64,000 nucleotides of DNA from Tenggerimyces flavus. GTDB taxonomy: Bacteria > Actinomycetota > Actinomycetes > Propionibacteriales > Actinopolymorphaceae. The stretch covers positions 7,851,420-7,915,419 of the forward strand of contig NZ_JAFBCM010000001.1 of assembly GCF_016907715.1 (NCBI RefSeq). Reading direction: 5' to 3'. The notes below the pieces were generated by a model. The model saw nothing but the letters and a program-made list of their open reading frames with translations, had not been told where the DNA came from and did no database searches. This document shows, in pieces, positions 7,711-52,611 of the stretch. The translations under genes were made by a program, and so were the position numbers. How positions within the stretch are numbered: position 1 is the stretch's first letter; every line of letters begins with the position of its first letter.

Positions 7711-7786
7711 GTGATCATGAACGTGATCATGAAAGCGGACTGGGCGTATATGACCGGTTCGCCTTCATGATCACGTACATGATCAC
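7711..7786. repeat. Repeat family C: GTGATCATG hairpin element
   Basis: Long inverted repeat between converging metE and the aldo/keto reductase gene. The left arm, GTGATCATGAACGTGATCAT then GAAAGCG, pairs with the right arm, CGCCTTCATGATCACGTACA then TGATCAC, around a short core containing GGGCGTATATGACC. Related copies sit at 13374-13424 and 18368-18454. The position suggests a bidirectional terminator or REP-like element; this is inference. Confidence 0.75.
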
Positions 7787-12864: not shown

Positions 12865-12889
12865 TTGGATGAAGGGCACCTTCATCCAA
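12865..12889. repeat. Repeat family A, half-unit
   Basis: Perfect palindrome TTGGATGAAGG-GCA-CCTTCATCCAA (11-bp arms, 3-base loop) 18 bases after the glycohydrolase stop. It is one half of the two-unit family A element; the following bases AGGTTCG match the centre of the complete copies, but the second unit is missing. Confidence 0.8.
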
Positions 12890-13279: not shown

Positions 13280-13335
13280 TTGAATGAAGGGCACCTTCAT
13301 TCAATAGGTTCGAATGAAGGTGCCCTTCATCCAAG
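13280..13335. repeat. Repeat family A, complete two-unit element
   Basis: Unit 1, TTGAATGAAGG-GCA-CCTTCATTCAA, and unit 2, GAATGAAGG-TGC-CCTTCATCC, separated by the conserved asymmetric centre TAGGTTC. Each unit is a small hairpin, and the two units are reverse complements of each other, so the whole can also fold as one long stem. It lies between converging genes, suggesting a bidirectional terminator. Confidence 0.8.
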
Positions 13336-13373
13336 GGTCGGTTGGGGCCTGTCCCGCAATCCGCCACGCGCCC

Positions 13374-13424
13374 GTGATCATGAAGGCAGAGCTTCTCTTT
13401 TCGCCAGTGAGGCTTCATGATCAC
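13374..13424. repeat. Repeat family C, short copy
   Basis: GTGATCATGAAGGC at 13374 is inverted as GCTTCATGATCAC ending at 13424, with a core containing TTCTCTTTTCGCCAGTGA. It has a single GTGATCATGA unit per arm where the copies at 7711 and 18368 have two or three. Confidence 0.7.
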
Positions 13425-13565: not shown

Positions 13566-15728
13566 CTAGCGGTCGAGCTCGCGGACGAGGTGGATCAGGC
13601 AGCTGTCGAAGTCACCGCGCAGTACCAGCGGGACGCCGTGGTTCTGCAGCAGGGCGCCGGTCCAGACCTCGCCGGTGTCGGGGTTGCGGTAGCGGCCCAA
13701 CGGGTCGAGGCCGCGCAGGCGCAAGGGCGGCTTGACGGTGCCGAACTGTTGCGAGTGCTGCCACGCGATCACCACGACCTCGGAGCCGTCGCGGTGCACG
13801 TACTCCACCGCCGAAAGGTCTCCAGCCGAAGGCGGCCGCAGCCGATAGAGCAGGCCGTGCTGGACGACCGGACGGATCCGCTTGTACTGCGCGATCAGCT
13901 CTTTCGCCTCGGTACGTTCGGCATCGGTCCATTTCGTCAGATCGCCGCCGATACCGAGCAGACCTGCCATCGCCGAGTGGAAGCGCCACCGCAACGAGGA
14001 GCGCCGCTTGTTGATGTGGTCCGGCGAGTCCGTCACCCACGCCGACATCACGCGCGGCGCGTACACCTGCGTGAAGCCTTCCTGGATCTTCAACCGGTCG
14101 AAGCCGTCGGTGTTGTCCGACGTCCACACCATGTCGGTCCGCGCGAGGATGCCGAAGTCGACCCGGCCGCCACCACCCGCGCAGCTCTCGATCGCCACGC
14201 CGGGATGCGCGCGCCGCAGCCGATCGAGTACGGAGTACAGGTTGCGTACGTGGTCGATCCACAACCGCTCGGGGTTGTCCGCCTCCTCCGGCCAGCCGGG
14301 CTCGGAGAACGGGCGGTTCATGTCCCACTTCACGTAGTCGATCGCGTTGTTCGCGAGCAGGTCGTGCAGCCACTCGTACATCCACTCGGCGACGTCGGGA
14401 CGGCCCAAGTTCAGCACGAGCTGGTTGCGTGACTCGCTCCGCTTCCGGGTCGGGAAGTGGTAGACCCAGTCCGGATGGTCGCGGTACAGATCGCTGTCCG
14501 GGTTGACCATCTCCGGCTCGACCCAGATGCCGAACTGCATGCCGCGGTCGTGCACGGCGGAGATCAACGGGGCCAGGCCCTTGGGGAAGCGGTCCGGGTT
14601 CGTCACCCAGTCGCCGAGGCCGGCCCGGTCGTTGATGCGCTGCCCGAACCATCCGTCGTCCATCACGAACAGCTCCACCCCCATCTCCGCGGCGAGCTCC
14701 GCGAGCTGGGTCTGGTTCTCCTCGTTGATGTCGAAGAACGTCGCCTCCCACGAGTTGTAGAGCACCGGGCGAAGCTGCTTGGCCTTGGGCACGATGTGCC
14801 GGAGCTGGTACGTGTGCCACGCCCGGCTCGCCGCGCCGAAGCCCGCGGCACTGTAGACGCCCGCGAAGACCGGAGTCTCGAAGATCTCACCAGCGTGCAG
14901 CTTCCAGACCCTGAAGCCGTCCTGCCCGAAGCCACCCGACACCGACGCGCGCCCGTTCGCGAACCGCTGCGCGTGGAACCGCCACGACCCGCTCCACGCG
15001 AGCGCCCCGCTCCACACCTCGCCGTGCTCCTCGCCGGCCGTACCGTCGTCGACCGCGAACCACGGGTTGGCGTGGTGGCTCGTGATCCCCGTCCGGCTGC
15101 CGATCGCGAACGTCGATGCCGGCGCCAACGGGACCCGCGACAGCTGCGTCTCGCCGCCCCAATGTCCATGCAGGTGGCTGATTCGGTAGTCGTCGCGGAA
15201 CGGGATCGCCCACGAGGCGGAGTGCGCTTGCAGCACGTCGATCGGCTCGGCGGTCTCCGGCGCACCGTCCTCGCTGGCCGAAGCGGTGTGCCGCAGCTCC
15301 GTCCAGCGCTCGATGATGTCGCCGTCCTCGTACACGCGGTAGTGCAGCGTGACCTCGAGCGGGTACGTACGGTCGGCGAACCGCAGCTCGAGCTCGCTCC
15401 GGTTGCCCTCGCGGCGTGTCTCCGCACCTTGGAACGTCCACTCGATGCCGCGCACCTGGTCGCCGAAGCGCACCGACAGCGAGGGCTGCCCGTACCGCAG
15501 CTCGCCCTCGACCGGCAGCTCCTCGACGCCGTCGCCGCCGGTCTCCGCGGTGCGGATCCGGCTCGGCGCGACGGTGAAGACGACGTGCACGGCGTCGGCC
15601 AGGTGGATGCGCGGACCCCAGTAGATGTTGACCAAACGGTCGTGCGGCGTCAGCCGGATCCCGTACGACGTCGTCTGCGTCGACAGCAACCAGACCCGTT
15701 GCGCGTGGTCGAACTCGATCCCTGCCAT
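13566..15728 (-). CDS. GH36 alpha-galactosidase
   Basis: Glycoside hydrolase family 36 enzyme of 720 residues, probably cytoplasmic because no signal peptide is seen. It removes terminal alpha-galactose from oligosaccharides. Domains are the N-terminal beta-supersandwich (to about residue 320), the catalytic barrel and a C-terminal beta domain. The nucleophile lies in YVKWDMNRPF (Asp469), the acid/base in TSDNTDGFDRL (Asp538), and the substrate loop is ESCAGGGGRVDFGI. VMDDGWFG and WVEPEMVNPDSDLY are family hallmarks. The ATG at 15728 (MAGIEFDHAQ) is used; further upstream the frame enters the SDR gene. It is the last gene of a four-gene operon and begins 22 bp after the SDR stop. Confidence 0.93.
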   Translation of the reverse strand: MAGIEFDHAQRVWLLSTQTTSYGIRLTPHDRLVNIYWGPRIHLADAVHVVFTVAPSRIRTAETGGDGVEELPVEGELRYGQPSLSVRFGDQVRGIEWTFQGAETRREGNRSELELRFADRTYPLEVTLHYRVYEDGDIIERWTELRHTASASEDGAPETAEPIDVLQAHSASWAIPFRDDYRISHLHGHWGGETQLSRVPLAPASTFAIGSRTGITSHHANPWFAVDDGTAGEEHGEVWSGALAWSGSWRFHAQRFANGRASVSGGFGQDGFRVWKLHAGEIFETPVFAGVYSAAGFGAASRAWHTYQLRHIVPKAKQLRPVLYNSWEATFFDINEENQTQLAELAAEMGVELFVMDDGWFGQRINDRAGLGDWVTNPDRFPKGLAPLISAVHDRGMQFGIWVEPEMVNPDSDLYRDHPDWVYHFPTRKRSESRNQLVLNLGRPDVAEWMYEWLHDLLANNAIDYVKWDMNRPFSEPGWPEEADNPERLWIDHVRNLYSVLDRLRRAHPGVAIESCAGGGGRVDFGILARTDMVWTSDNTDGFDRLKIQEGFTQVYAPRVMSAWVTDSPDHINKRRSSLRWRFHSAMAGLLGIGGDLTKWTDAERTEAKELIAQYKRIRPVVQHGLLYRLRPPSAGDLSAVEYVHRDGSEVVVIAWQHSQQFGTVKPPLRLRGLDPLGRYRNPDTGEVWTGALLQNHGVPLVLRGDFDSCLIHLVRELDR

Positions 15729-15750
15729 TGCCGCACTACTCCCCGTTGAT

Positions 15751-16503
15751 TTACGACTTCGGCCGGAGCCGGAGGTTCTGCATGCCGCCGTCGACGCCGA
15801 GCTCGACAGCGGTGGTCGCTCCGGCCAGCGGCGAGGCGAGGTAGACGATGCCAGCGGCGACCTCTTGCGGCGACACCAGCTTGCCGGTCGGCTGCCGCGC
15901 CTCGAGTGCCGCACGTTCGGCCTCGGGATCGTCGGCCTGCGCGAGCAACCGGCCCACCCACGGCGTGTCCGCCGTCCCCGGGTGGACCATGTTGACGCGG
16001 ATGCCCTCGTGCACGTGGTCCGCCGCCATCGCGAACGTCAGCGCGCGAACGGCGCCCTTCGAGGCGCTGTAGAGCGCACGCATCGGGATGCCCGCGACCG
16101 CGGCGATCGAACAGGTGTTGACGATCGCGGCCGCCGGCGACTTCCGTAGGTGCGGCAGCGCCGCCCTGCTGACGCGCGCCATGCCGACCACGTTGACGTT
16201 CAGCACCCGCAGCCACTCGTCGTCGTCATTGTCGGCGACCGTGCCGATCGCGCCGATGCCGGCGTTGTTGACGACGATGTCGAGCCGGCCGAACCGCTCG
16301 ATCACGATGTCAATCGCGGCTTGCACCGCCGCCGAGTCGGTCACGTCGCAGCTCACCCCGAGCAGCGGTTCCGGCACCTTCTCGGCCTGCAGGTCGAGCG
16401 CGGCGACCTTCGCGCCGCGCTCGGCGAGCAGCGTCGCGGTGGCGAGCCCGATGCCGGACGCGCCACCGGTGACGACTGCAACCAGACCGTCGAAGTCACT
16501 CAT
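15751..16503 (-). CDS. Short-chain dehydrogenase/reductase (sugar or keto-acid dehydrogenase)
   Basis: Classical SDR of 250 residues. Cofactor motif TGGASGIG (residues 12-19), NNAG at 79-82, catalytic Ser132, Tyr145 and Lys149 (YSASK), and HPGTADTPW after it. Asp37 after the second strand favours NAD over NADP. Its start overlaps the upstream FAH-family gene stop by 4 bp. SDRs next to a FAH-family hydrolase often oxidise a 2-keto-3-deoxy-sugar acid (for example in the L-fuconate pathway), but a galactose 1-dehydrogenase role alongside the alpha-galactosidase is also possible. Neither substrate can be read from sequence alone. Confidence 0.85.
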   Translation of the reverse strand: MSDFDGLVAVVTGGASGIGLATATLLAERGAKVAALDLQAEKVPEPLLGVSCDVTDSAAVQAAIDIVIERFGRLDIVVNNAGIGAIGTVADNDDDEWLRVLNVNVVGMARVSRAALPHLRKSPAAAIVNTCSIAAVAGIPMRALYSASKGAVRALTFAMAADHVHEGIRVNMVHPGTADTPWVGRLLAQADDPEAERAALEARQPTGKLVSPQEVAAGIVYLASPLAGATTAVELGVDGGMQNLRLRPKS

Positions 16504-17360
16504 GCCTGGACCAGCTGCTGGCGTTGCTTGCCGAGGCCGTCGATCTCCAGCTCCATCACGTCCCCAGCCTCGAGGAACGGGAAGCGACCGGAGAGCGCGA
16601 CCCCTTGCGGCGTGCCGGTGTTGATGAGGTCGCCGGCGTCGAGCACGAGGTACTGCGAGAGGTGCCAGATCAGGAACGCGACGTCGAAGATCATGTCCGC
16701 GGTCGTCGAGTCCTGCCGTACCTCACCGTTGACGCTCGATCTGAGGCCGAGCTTCTGCGGCTCGACCTCGTCGGCGGGAACGAGGAACGGGCCGAGCGGG
16801 TTGAACGTCTCGCAGCACTTGCCCTTCGACCACTGGCCGGCGGAGTGCTCGATCTGGAACGTGCGCTCCGACACGTCGTTCGACACGACGTACCCGGCGA
16901 CGTACTCCAGCGCCTCGTCTGGCGAGGCGAGATAGCGCGCCTGCTTGCCGATCACGACGCCGAGCTCGACCTCCCAGTCGGTCTTCACCGACTCGCGCGG
17001 GATCAGCACGTCGTCGTACGGACCGACCACGGTGTTGGGGTGCTTGAAGAACAGGATCGGCGTCTTCGGCGGCGAGTCACCGGACTCCGCGGCGTGCGCG
17101 GCGTAGTTCTGTCCGATGCACAACACCGCACCCGGCTTGGCGATCGGCGCGCCGAGCCGCAGCCCGCTGCCGTCACCGGGATCGTCGATCTGCTCGAGTG
17201 TCCCTTGAGAAACCGCTTCCCTGACCTCGGCCAGCCCGCCGGTGGCGAAGAACTTGCCGTCGATCTCGGGAGTGAGGGAGTCCAGCGCGAACAGCGTGCC
17301 GTCATCCGTGCGGACGGCGGGACGCTCCTCGCCAGGAGCTCCAAGGCGTAGCAACTGCAC
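16500..17360 (-). CDS. Fumarylacetoacetate hydrolase family protein
   Basis: FAH-fold hydrolase or decarboxylase of 286 residues. Landmarks are VLCIGQNYAAHAAESG, PILFFKHPNTVVGPYDD, metal-ligand acids in DWEVELGVVIGK and VSNDVSERTFQ, and the C-terminal TGTPQGVALSG. Members cleave acyl-pyruvate-like compounds, including 2,4-diketo-3-deoxy-L-fuconate. The GTG at 17360 (VQLLRLGAPGEER) was chosen for its AGGAGG seven bases upstream. Between the isomerase gene (29 bp away) and the SDR gene (4 bp overlap) it would act on the same sugar acid. The specific fuconate assignment is inference. Confidence 0.85.
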   Translation of the reverse strand: MQLLRLGAPGEERPAVRTDDGTLFALDSLTPEIDGKFFATGGLAEVREAVSQGTLEQIDDPGDGSGLRLGAPIAKPGAVLCIGQNYAAHAAESGDSPPKTPILFFKHPNTVVGPYDDVLIPRESVKTDWEVELGVVIGKQARYLASPDEALEYVAGYVVSNDVSERTFQIEHSAGQWSKGKCCETFNPLGPFLVPADEVEPQKLGLRSSVNGEVRQDSTTADMIFDVAFLIWHLSQYLVLDAGDLINTGTPQGVALSGRFPFLEAGDVMELEIDGLGKQRQQLVQA

Positions 17361-17389
17361 GTGTCGTCCTCCTCTTGCGCCCTTGTCTA

Positions 17390-18190
17390 TCAGGCCCAGG
17401 TGGAGTGGCCGTTGTCGACCAGCCACTGGCCACCGGTAGCGGCGTCGTCGAACGGGTCGCCGGCGGACTCGTCGAGCTCGACGATGTGGTACTCGACCAT
17501 GGTGGCGCTGATGATCGCGCCGACGTTGTCGACGACGCCCTGGCCGACGGTGGTCTGCAGCTCCCCGCGCTTCGCCGGGCCGTCCTTGACGTGCAGCAGG
17601 ACGATCTTGTTGGCGTAGAGGGCAGCGACGTCGGCAGGCTTCTGCCCGGCGGTCGCAGTCCAGTAGATGTCGAGCTCGATGAACACGTCGTCGCTCAGGT
17701 TGCGGACGAACTGGTCGTACGCCGGCGTGCCGTCCTCGACGGGCTGCCACTCGAAGTCGTGGTTGTGGTAGCCGATCTTGATCCCGCGGCCCTTCGCCTT
17801 CTCGGCGGCGTTGTTGATCGCCTCGGCGATGCGGTTCACGCCGTCGCGGGTGCTGAGCACGTCGTGCGCGAAGCCCTTGACCGCGCCAGGCACGGGGGCG
17901 ATCAGGCGGTTGGTGCCGAGAATCTCGAGCTCGTCGTAGATCTCCTCGGCGCTGTCGTCGCTCGCGACCGTTCCGTGCGTGGAGACGATGGTGAGGCCGT
18001 TGTCGTCCAGCTGAGCGCGGAACTCCTGCGCGTCCTTGATCCTGTCCGCCTTGTCGCGGCTGAGGTCGCCGATGCCGTACGCCTCGACGGCCCGGAAGCC
18101 CTTCGCGGCCACCTTGGCCAGCGCGGCGGCGCGGTCCTCGGCGAACGCTTCGCGGACGGTGTAGAGCTGGATCGCGAGGGGTGTTGCCAT
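17390..18190 (-). CDS. Sugar phosphate isomerase/epimerase (xylose isomerase-like TIM barrel)
   Basis: Protein of 266 residues with the AP-endonuclease-2/xylose isomerase-like fold. It begins LAIQLYTVREAF and has GYHNHDFEW, ELDIYWTATAG and LLHVKDG, which carry the divalent metal-binding Glu, Asp and His residues typical of the family. It would interconvert a sugar or keto-sugar. It is the first gene of the sugar operon, with FAH, SDR and GH36 following. No transporter or regulator is linked on this strand, so the inducer is not evident. The start at 18190 has AAGGGGATGACTC upstream. Confidence 0.82.
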   Translation of the reverse strand: MATPLAIQLYTVREAFAEDRAAALAKVAAKGFRAVEAYGIGDLSRDKADRIKDAQEFRAQLDDNGLTIVSTHGTVASDDSAEEIYDELEILGTNRLIAPVPGAVKGFAHDVLSTRDGVNRIAEAINNAAEKAKGRGIKIGYHNHDFEWQPVEDGTPAYDQFVRNLSDDVFIELDIYWTATAGQKPADVAALYANKIVLLHVKDGPAKRGELQTTVGQGVVDNVGAIISATMVEYHIVELDESAGDPFDDAATGGQWLVDNGHSTWA

Positions 18191-18367
18191 GAGTCATCCC
18201 CTTGAATGTCGTCTGATGTCTTGTGGGTTCTCTTGCATCCTGCCGGACGAGGGGGGTGCCGCACGAGTCGTCTTGGGAACTGAGACGGCCGTCCACGGAC
18301 GCCTCCCCACTTAATCGTTAAGCACGGCCCAGCGAGGAACCGACTCCGCCGAAGTCGCGCGCCCCTC

Positions 18368-18454
18368 GTGATCATGTCCGTGATCATGTCCGTGATCATG
18401 AAGGCGTAGCCGCCATATACGCCAGTTTGCCTTCATGATCACGTTCATGATCAC
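18368..18454. repeat. Repeat family C, three-unit copy
   Basis: Left arm has three GTGATCATG units (the first two followed by TCC, the third by AAGGCG). Right arm reads CCTTCATGATCACGTTCATG then ATCAC. The core contains GCCGCCATATACGCCAG, similar to the core at 7740. It lies downstream of the HTH_67 gene end and upstream of the sugar operon, both on the minus strand, so it could end the transcript entering from the operon side or be part of its leader region. Confidence 0.7.
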
Positions 18455-47240: not shown

Positions 47241-47407
47241 GAATGAAGGGCACCTTCATTCCATAGCCCGGCCCATCCACCATGTCCCATCAAACTGTGG
47301 GGTTCTGGTCGCGACACGCCAGCGTGTCGCGACCAGAACCCCACACTTTCGCGAAGGGCGGAGGGTCCCCTCGCTCGAGGAGGTTCGAATGAAGGTGCCC
47401 TTCATTC
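47241..47407. repeat. Repeat family A, complete copy split by an insert
   Basis: Unit 1 GAATGAAGG-GCA-CCTTCATTC (47241-47261) and unit 2 GAATGAAGG-TGC-CCTTCATTC (47387-47407) have the normal order, but the centre ATAGGTTCG is broken: ATAG at 47263-47266 and AGGTTCG at 47381-47387 are separated by about 114 bases. Complete copies have the same centre unbroken (13302-13312). The insert holds the 24-bp hairpin listed separately. Located between the converging LAL and S8 genes. Confidence 0.75.
47296..47345. repeat. Perfect 24-bp inverted repeat
   Basis: TGTGGGGTTCTGGTCGCGAC then ACGC is followed by two bases (CA) and then the exact reverse complement, GCGTGTCGCGACCAGAACCC then CACA. A small hairpin, GGAGGGTCCCCTC, follows at 47360-47372. 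It is the longest perfect hairpin noticed in the window and lies inside the insert that splits repeat A. It may act as a strong terminator or a folded RNA. Confidence 0.9.
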
Positions 47408-52107: not shown

Positions 52108-52162
52108 TTGGATGAAGGGCACCTTCATCCAAACCTATTGGATGAAGGTGCCCTTCATCCAA
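52108..52162. repeat. Repeat family A, complete copy
   Basis: Two perfect hairpins, TTGGATGAAGG-GCA-CCTTCATCCAA and TTGGATGAAGG-TGC-CCTTCATCCAA, around ACCTA. The outer bases differ from the 13280 copy (GGAT/ATCC here, GAAT/ATTC there) but pair in both, and the centre is in inverted orientation. Twelve bases after the PNP stop. Confidence 0.85.
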
Positions 52163-52550: not shown

Positions 52551-52611
52551 GTTTTTAATGAAGGGCACCTTCATTCGAACCTATTGAATGAAGGTGCCCT
52601 TCATCAAAAAC
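52551..52611. repeat. Repeat family A, copy with extended outer stem
   Basis: GTTTTTAATGAAGGGCACC pairs with the distal GGTGCCCTTCATCAAAAAC (one mismatch). Each half also forms its own AATGAAGG/CCTTCATT hairpin, and the centre is CGAACCTATTG. The T-run and A-run at the ends would give U-rich tails in both directions, as expected for a bidirectional terminator of PNP and the VOC gene, whose stop is 5 bases away. Confidence 0.85.

Follow-up and report, generated by a model that had tools for sequence, protein, structure and literature searches.

The closest described system is the non-phosphorylating L-fucose pathway of Herbaspirillum huttiense (route 3, FucF and FucG; PMC11199699, cited throughout from the accessible part of the article). 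L-2-keto-3-deoxyfuconate (L-KDF) 4-dehydrogenases (L-KDFDH) are reported there to bind their acid substrate through Arg148, Arg192 and Arg214 together with Thr183, a site for which four residue patterns are listed. Other characterised relatives of the genes considered below are LRA6, an L-2,4-diketo-3-deoxyrhamnonate hydrolase (PDB: 8GSR), the 3-keto-beta-glucopyranoside-1,2-lyases AL1 and BT1 with the related O-glycoside beta-eliminase AtOGE (PMC10628242, likewise cited from its accessible part), which cleave sugars by elimination instead of hydrolysis, and the alpha-galactosidases AgaA and AgaB (PDB: 4FNQ). Here we compare with these systems a four-gene operon of Tenggerimyces flavus, encoding a TIM-barrel 'isomerase', a FAH-family hydrolase, a short-chain dehydrogenase (SDR) and a GH36 alpha-galactosidase, within a stretch of 64,000 nucleotides (the window; bases 7,851,420-7,915,419 of a single-contig 8.52-Mb genome). 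The FAH and SDR genes most likely belong to the known L-fucose pathway in a split arrangement, in which they would supply its last two steps (the lower half) and a cluster elsewhere in the genome the upper half. The operon itself was not found described in the literature searched, including a search on Actinopolymorpha and fucose, with subscription papers mostly outside reach. In window coordinates, it is laid out as follows:

18269-18287, minus strand: inverted repeat CGTCTCA-N5-TGGGACG (one mismatch here), upstream of the first gene, a possible operator
18190-17390, minus strand: TIM-barrel 'isomerase', 266 aa, xylose-isomerase-like, PF01261
17360-16500, minus strand: FAH-family hydrolase, 286 aa, GTG start, PF01557
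16503-15751, minus strand: SDR, 250 aa
15728-13566, minus strand: GH36 alpha-galactosidase, 720 aa, ATG start, with N-terminal, melibiase and C-terminal Pfam domains

The TIM-barrel and FAH genes are separated by 29 bp, FAH and SDR overlap by 4 bp, and SDR and GH36 are separated by 22 bp, all three spacings being exactly those on which the preliminary description of this DNA had based its claim of tight packing. Within a set of eight family genomes, the present one (G000) counted among them, all eight have the TIM-barrel, FAH and SDR genes in this order on a single strand, with identities to the window proteins of 59-63% for the TIM-barrel orthologues and 77-81% for both FAH and SDR. Since order and strand are retained throughout, the association of these three genes is more than chance. 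An acyl-CoA-carboxylase-like gene immediately adjoins the three-gene unit in five of the eight genomes; other reading frames lie between in the window, G005 and G007. A Paenibacillus locus (L230) also carries FAH (43%) and SDR (38%) genes near a TIM-barrel homologue, but other genes are interposed, so we did not treat it as an instance of the unit. None of the four operon proteins reached a curated NCBIfam cut-off among the matches listed (for the SDR, the best 25 of 225).

The FAH and SDR genes and the L-fucose pathway

The FAH protein is a probable 2,4-diketo-3-deoxy-L-fuconate hydrolase and the SDR a probable L-KDF 4-dehydrogenase, as judged by homology. The best PDB match of FAH is LRA6 (202.8 bits), with a full-length alignment over residues 4-283 and retention of the metal-region motifs. 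Unlike LRA6, it is found beside fucose genes instead of rhamnose genes. In the PDB, the SDR is matched best by 4DQX, a structure placed near type 2 L-KDFDH (PMC11199699), and alignment to it locates the Ser-Tyr-Lys triad at S132, Y145 and K149. The carboxylate-binding arginines R142 and R203 are retained together with T177, as in types 1 and 2 of the same study. The preliminary description had been reminded by FAH and SDR of non-phosphorylative L-fuconate breakdown; homology, residues and the presence of orthologues in fucose clusters fit that reading; the new oxidative route from D-galactose to a diketo acid that it also proposed is not supported.

The genomic neighbourhood of FAH orthologues outside the family points the same way. 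Thirteen of 36 matches, from 12 genomes, were sampled with 20 kb around each, some of the proteins at these loci being the queries themselves. An SDR orthologue (59-69% identical to the window SDR) was present in 10/13, L-fuconate dehydratase (FucD) of at least 58% identity in 5/13, a lactonase-like amidohydrolase in 8/13 and an aldo/keto reductase in 7/13; one or more of FucD, amidohydrolase and aldo/keto reductase occurred in 10/13. At two further loci (L170 and L171), an SDR orthologue (71%) sits between FucD and the aldo/keto reductase. Homologues of the fuconate dehydratase, lactonase and dehydrogenase are likewise encoded in the T. flavus genome. Its FucD (5,710,848-5,712,095) matches the solved L-fuconate dehydratase 1YEY at 616 bits, and is divergent from genes for an aldo/keto reductase (43% identical to that of L081) and an amidohydrolase (36% identical to that of L082). 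In the proposed scheme, the aldo/keto reductase would act as L-fucose dehydrogenase, the amidohydrolase as lactonase and the enolase-family FucD as L-fuconate dehydratase, delivering L-KDF to the SDR and FAH enzymes. The arrangement thus resembles route 3 in its adjacent C4-dehydrogenase and diketo-acid-hydrolase homologues, and differs in that the candidate L-fucose dehydrogenase is an aldo/keto reductase and the lower half is accompanied by the TIM-barrel gene and, variably, by GH36. FucD was found in seven of the eight family genomes.

Several observations weigh against this assignment. The upper fucose cluster is unlinked to the operon, 2.15 Mb away, and its aldo/keto reductase and amidohydrolase are just moderately like the cluster proteins; an NCBIfam L-fucose dehydrogenase match was not found in a homologue of the former, and a homologue of the latter scores 164.6, below a cut-off of 400. 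Three of the 13 outside loci (L076, L078, L086) have neither FucD nor lactonase nor aldo/keto reductase within 20 kb. One relative, G001, keeps the unit and has no FucD match genome-wide at E 1e-30, nor any FucD at the expected place beside the aldo/keto reductase (L166, 7478-8748), where relatives have one. FAH scores 261.6 bits on the NCBIfam LRA6 model NF053535, below the equivalog cut-off of 500, for which reason we did not file it as LRA6. The SDR has L186, neither Arg nor Tyr, at the Arg192 equivalent (matched by counting, not by structure), and the resulting R-T-L-R pattern is absent from the four patterns in the accessible part of PMC11199699; R-T-L-R was likewise read in the SDRs of fucose clusters L081, L083 and L084. 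Lastly, no operator common to the operon and the upper fucose cluster was found in four genomes (G000, G003, G005 and G007), where the best 18-base matches were of 13, 14, 13 and 16 bases, the last GC-rich, inconsistent between genomes and compared without a shuffled control. Clustering of the upper and lower halves is common, not required. Taken as a whole, an account that combines a split L-fucose route with trimming by GH36 and elimination by the TIM-barrel enzyme is in our judgement probable, with appreciable room for doubt. On this account, the family-wide three-gene unit would act at the end of an L-fucose route that is already known.

The same chemistry might instead serve another main substrate, with the SDR and FAH acting on 2-keto-3-deoxy-L-galactonate (L-KDGal) or on acids derived from D-pentonates (D-arabinose, D-xylose). 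The separation of the unit from the fuconate dehydratase cluster would suit this, as would the breadth of the H. huttiense L-KDFDH, which takes L-KDGal 5-fold and D-KDP 12-fold less well than L-KDF (PMC11199699, Table 1). Against it stand the close FucD homologues beside outside orthologues (in the five sampled loci and in L170 and L171), and the GH29 fucosidase genes found some 16-21 kb away from the unit in six of the eight family genomes, a proximity that may be plain synteny. We consider another main substrate unlikely, and retain L-KDF and its diketo product as the probable substrates.

Beside the GH29 fucosidase gene, a GMC oxidoreductase gene and a gene for a small protein without a Pfam match are divergently arranged (L165 8039-12287; G000:C1:7840038-7844286); no such pair was read beside GH29 in L172 or L173. 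The T. flavus genome also encodes an FAH paralogue of 54% identity (L005 9414-10235; G000:C1:6852913-6853734), which shares its locus with a GlcNAc-2-epimerase-family gene, ABC transporter genes and GH20; two further FAH copies are 45% and 40% identical.

The TIM-barrel gene

The TIM-barrel gene, set beside fucose-acid genes, is the oddity of this operon. An AlphaFold2 model of the protein, computed from a 59-sequence alignment, had a mean pLDDT of 97.8. Foldseek ranked the uncharacterised structure 3OBE first, with AL1 and BT1 next. VIA-align Z scores were 27.8 for AL1, 27.7 for 3OBE, 26.8 for BT1 and 26.1 for 3L23, followed by Art22 (23.5), AtOGE (23.2), IolE (22.4) and IolI (20.9), with sugar 3-epimerases and xylose isomerases at about 19-20. 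In AtOGE, the metal is bound by His132, Asp163, His189 and, weakly, Glu233, and His134 is catalytic; the first metal ligand is Glu in C-glycoside enzymes (PMC10628242). H142, H144, D174 and H200 of the window protein align with the first three of these AtOGE metal ligands and the catalytic histidine, and E238 was matched through the alignment of homologues only. All five residues are invariant in 59/59 sequences, an invariance partly built in for the histidine pair because the contig scan of homologues used the pattern GYHNHDF; 13 of the 59, from outside the family, were chosen without it.

The 'isomerase' label given to this gene in the preliminary description is therefore doubtful and probably a misnomer, as the characterised structures closest to the model are 3-keto-glycoside lyases and the metal-binding and catalytic histidines of AtOGE are kept. 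Fold and residues, although no proof of a reaction, mark a likely lyase-type enzyme, one that would probably take a keto sugar or keto-glycoside as the substrate of a metal-dependent elimination. The window gene differs from AL1, BT1 and AtOGE in being just 22-26% identical to them, and in its setting amid sugar-acid genes, with neither of the usual partners, a Gfo/Idh reductase and a glycoside 3-dehydrogenase, among the four operon genes. Around 80 loci encoding TIM-barrel homologues, a Gfo/Idh query matched at 32, compared with one of 18 control loci that were unmatched in taxon and length; a GMC query gave two matches and a small-subunit query none. As a candidate partner, the Gluconate_2-dh3 subunit (PF13618) was rejected: it had no match in the T. 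flavus genome and, by position, none of the six family genomes in which it was matched has it near the unit.

Alternatively, the TIM-barrel gene might have no functional connection with FAH and SDR and simply share their transcript, its product being an ordinary isomerase or epimerase of sugars. Elsewhere, FAH is rarely found near its homologues (2/80 loci, one of the two in its own family), the gap to FAH, 29 bp in the window, is 84-179 bp in the seven relatives, and the dehydrogenase subunit PF13618 is not matched in the genome. Opposed to these points are the family-wide constancy of order and strand, the presence of His rather than Glu at the metal position, as in AtOGE, and the lower Z scores of sugar 3-epimerases and xylose isomerases relative to AL1. 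On balance we find an unrelated isomerase somewhat unlikely, and prefer an elimination enzyme. More specifically, this enzyme could be a keto-glycoside eliminase for fucosylated or galactosylated substrates, so that L-fucose would be freed by oxidation and elimination and then finished by the diketo-acid route of the same operon. Such a role, which we regard as distinctly improbable, would, if true, link the oxidative catabolism of L-fucose with a glycoside pathway that works without hydrolysis. In either form, the gene gives an opportunity to test directly, in soil actinobacteria, whether elimination chemistry operates alongside oxidative fucose genes.

GH36 and the proposed D-galactose route

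The identification of the glycosidase as an alpha-galactosidase in the preliminary description agrees with its three GH36 Pfam domains and with the motifs DDGW (357), KWDMN (467) and TSDNTD (536), which we take to include the catalytic aspartates. The protein matches AgaB at 428.2 bits, and shares with AgaA and AgaB the three-domain layout as well as these motifs; it differs from them in lying within a sugar-acid operon and in being variable among relatives. An intact GH36 gene follows SDR in two of the eight family genomes, the present one and G007 (69%). In G005 a remnant of 44 residues, 70% identical and corresponding to GH36 residues 619-662, occurs shortly after SDR at a contig end (L072 600-731). 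In the other five, SDR is followed within 129 bp by Maf, and the search for GH36 traces gave nothing better than E 0.8. We think it likelier that GH36 was present early, with subsequent losses, than that it was gained repeatedly. The enzyme probably trims alpha-galactose off glycans that also bear L-fucose. A fungal L-fucose regulator that controls alpha-galactosidases provides a precedent (PMC12370193, from its accessible part), by which a fucose operon can accommodate GH36 with no need to invoke a route for galactose.

In the galactose route envisaged earlier, D-galactose freed by GH36 would be converted to D-galactonate and on to 2-keto-3-deoxy-D-galactonate (D-KDGal), which the SDR would oxidise at C4 and FAH split to pyruvate and D-glycerate. 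Its strongest point is the galactonate dehydratase gene (5042-3897, minus strand), reported as about 9 kb away and genuine by its NCBIfam score (620.3 bits against an equivalog cut-off of 311), which lies 8.5 kb from the 3' end of GH36 and is near the unit in six of the eight family genomes; the intact GH36 genes and the remnant in a third genome also speak for it. Between the dehydratase and GH36, however, are six genes on both strands (MetE, aldo/keto reductase, PhyH, AraC, Maf and ADP-ribosylglycohydrolase), so that the dehydratase stands outside the operon, and GH36 is not next to SDR in five of the eight genomes that keep the unit. KDPG-type aldolases occur in all eight, so an ordinary phosphorylated fate of the galactonate-derived acid is possible. 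D-KDGal is, moreover, a 4(R) acid. A preference for 4(S)-hydroxy acids is reported for the best characterised relative of the SDR, which still uses the 4(R) acid L-KDP, about 200-fold less well; D-KDGal itself is absent from the table in question (PMC11199699, Table 1). As two of the four genes resemble the last two steps of the L-fucose route, a new galactose pathway is unlikely, and we consider the route as proposed very improbable.

Regulation and repeats

In 8/8 family genomes, the inverted repeat CGTCTCA-N5-TGGGACG precedes the first gene by at most 200 bp, with 0-1 mismatches. Its genome-wide matches did not mark the upper fucose cluster, and co-regulation of the operon and that cluster through a common operator is unsupported in the four genomes compared. 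A second site of the repeat recurs in G002, G003, G004 and G007; in the three cases read (L267, L269 and L276) it falls at the end of a sialidase-like gene, a position for which we took the recurrence as chance. Promoter and terminator scans of the operon region gave nothing above shuffles.

Two further repeats were observed in the window. The hairpin ATGAAGGTGCCCTTCAT is present in nine exact copies, many of them paired, where shuffles led us to expect none (12869-12885, 13284-13330, 47243-47405, 52112-52158 and 52558-52604), and looks like an intergenic repeat family. CTTCATGATCACG has four copies, again with none expected from shuffles, at 7763-7775, 13373-13385 and 18391-18443, including copies on both flanks of the operon.

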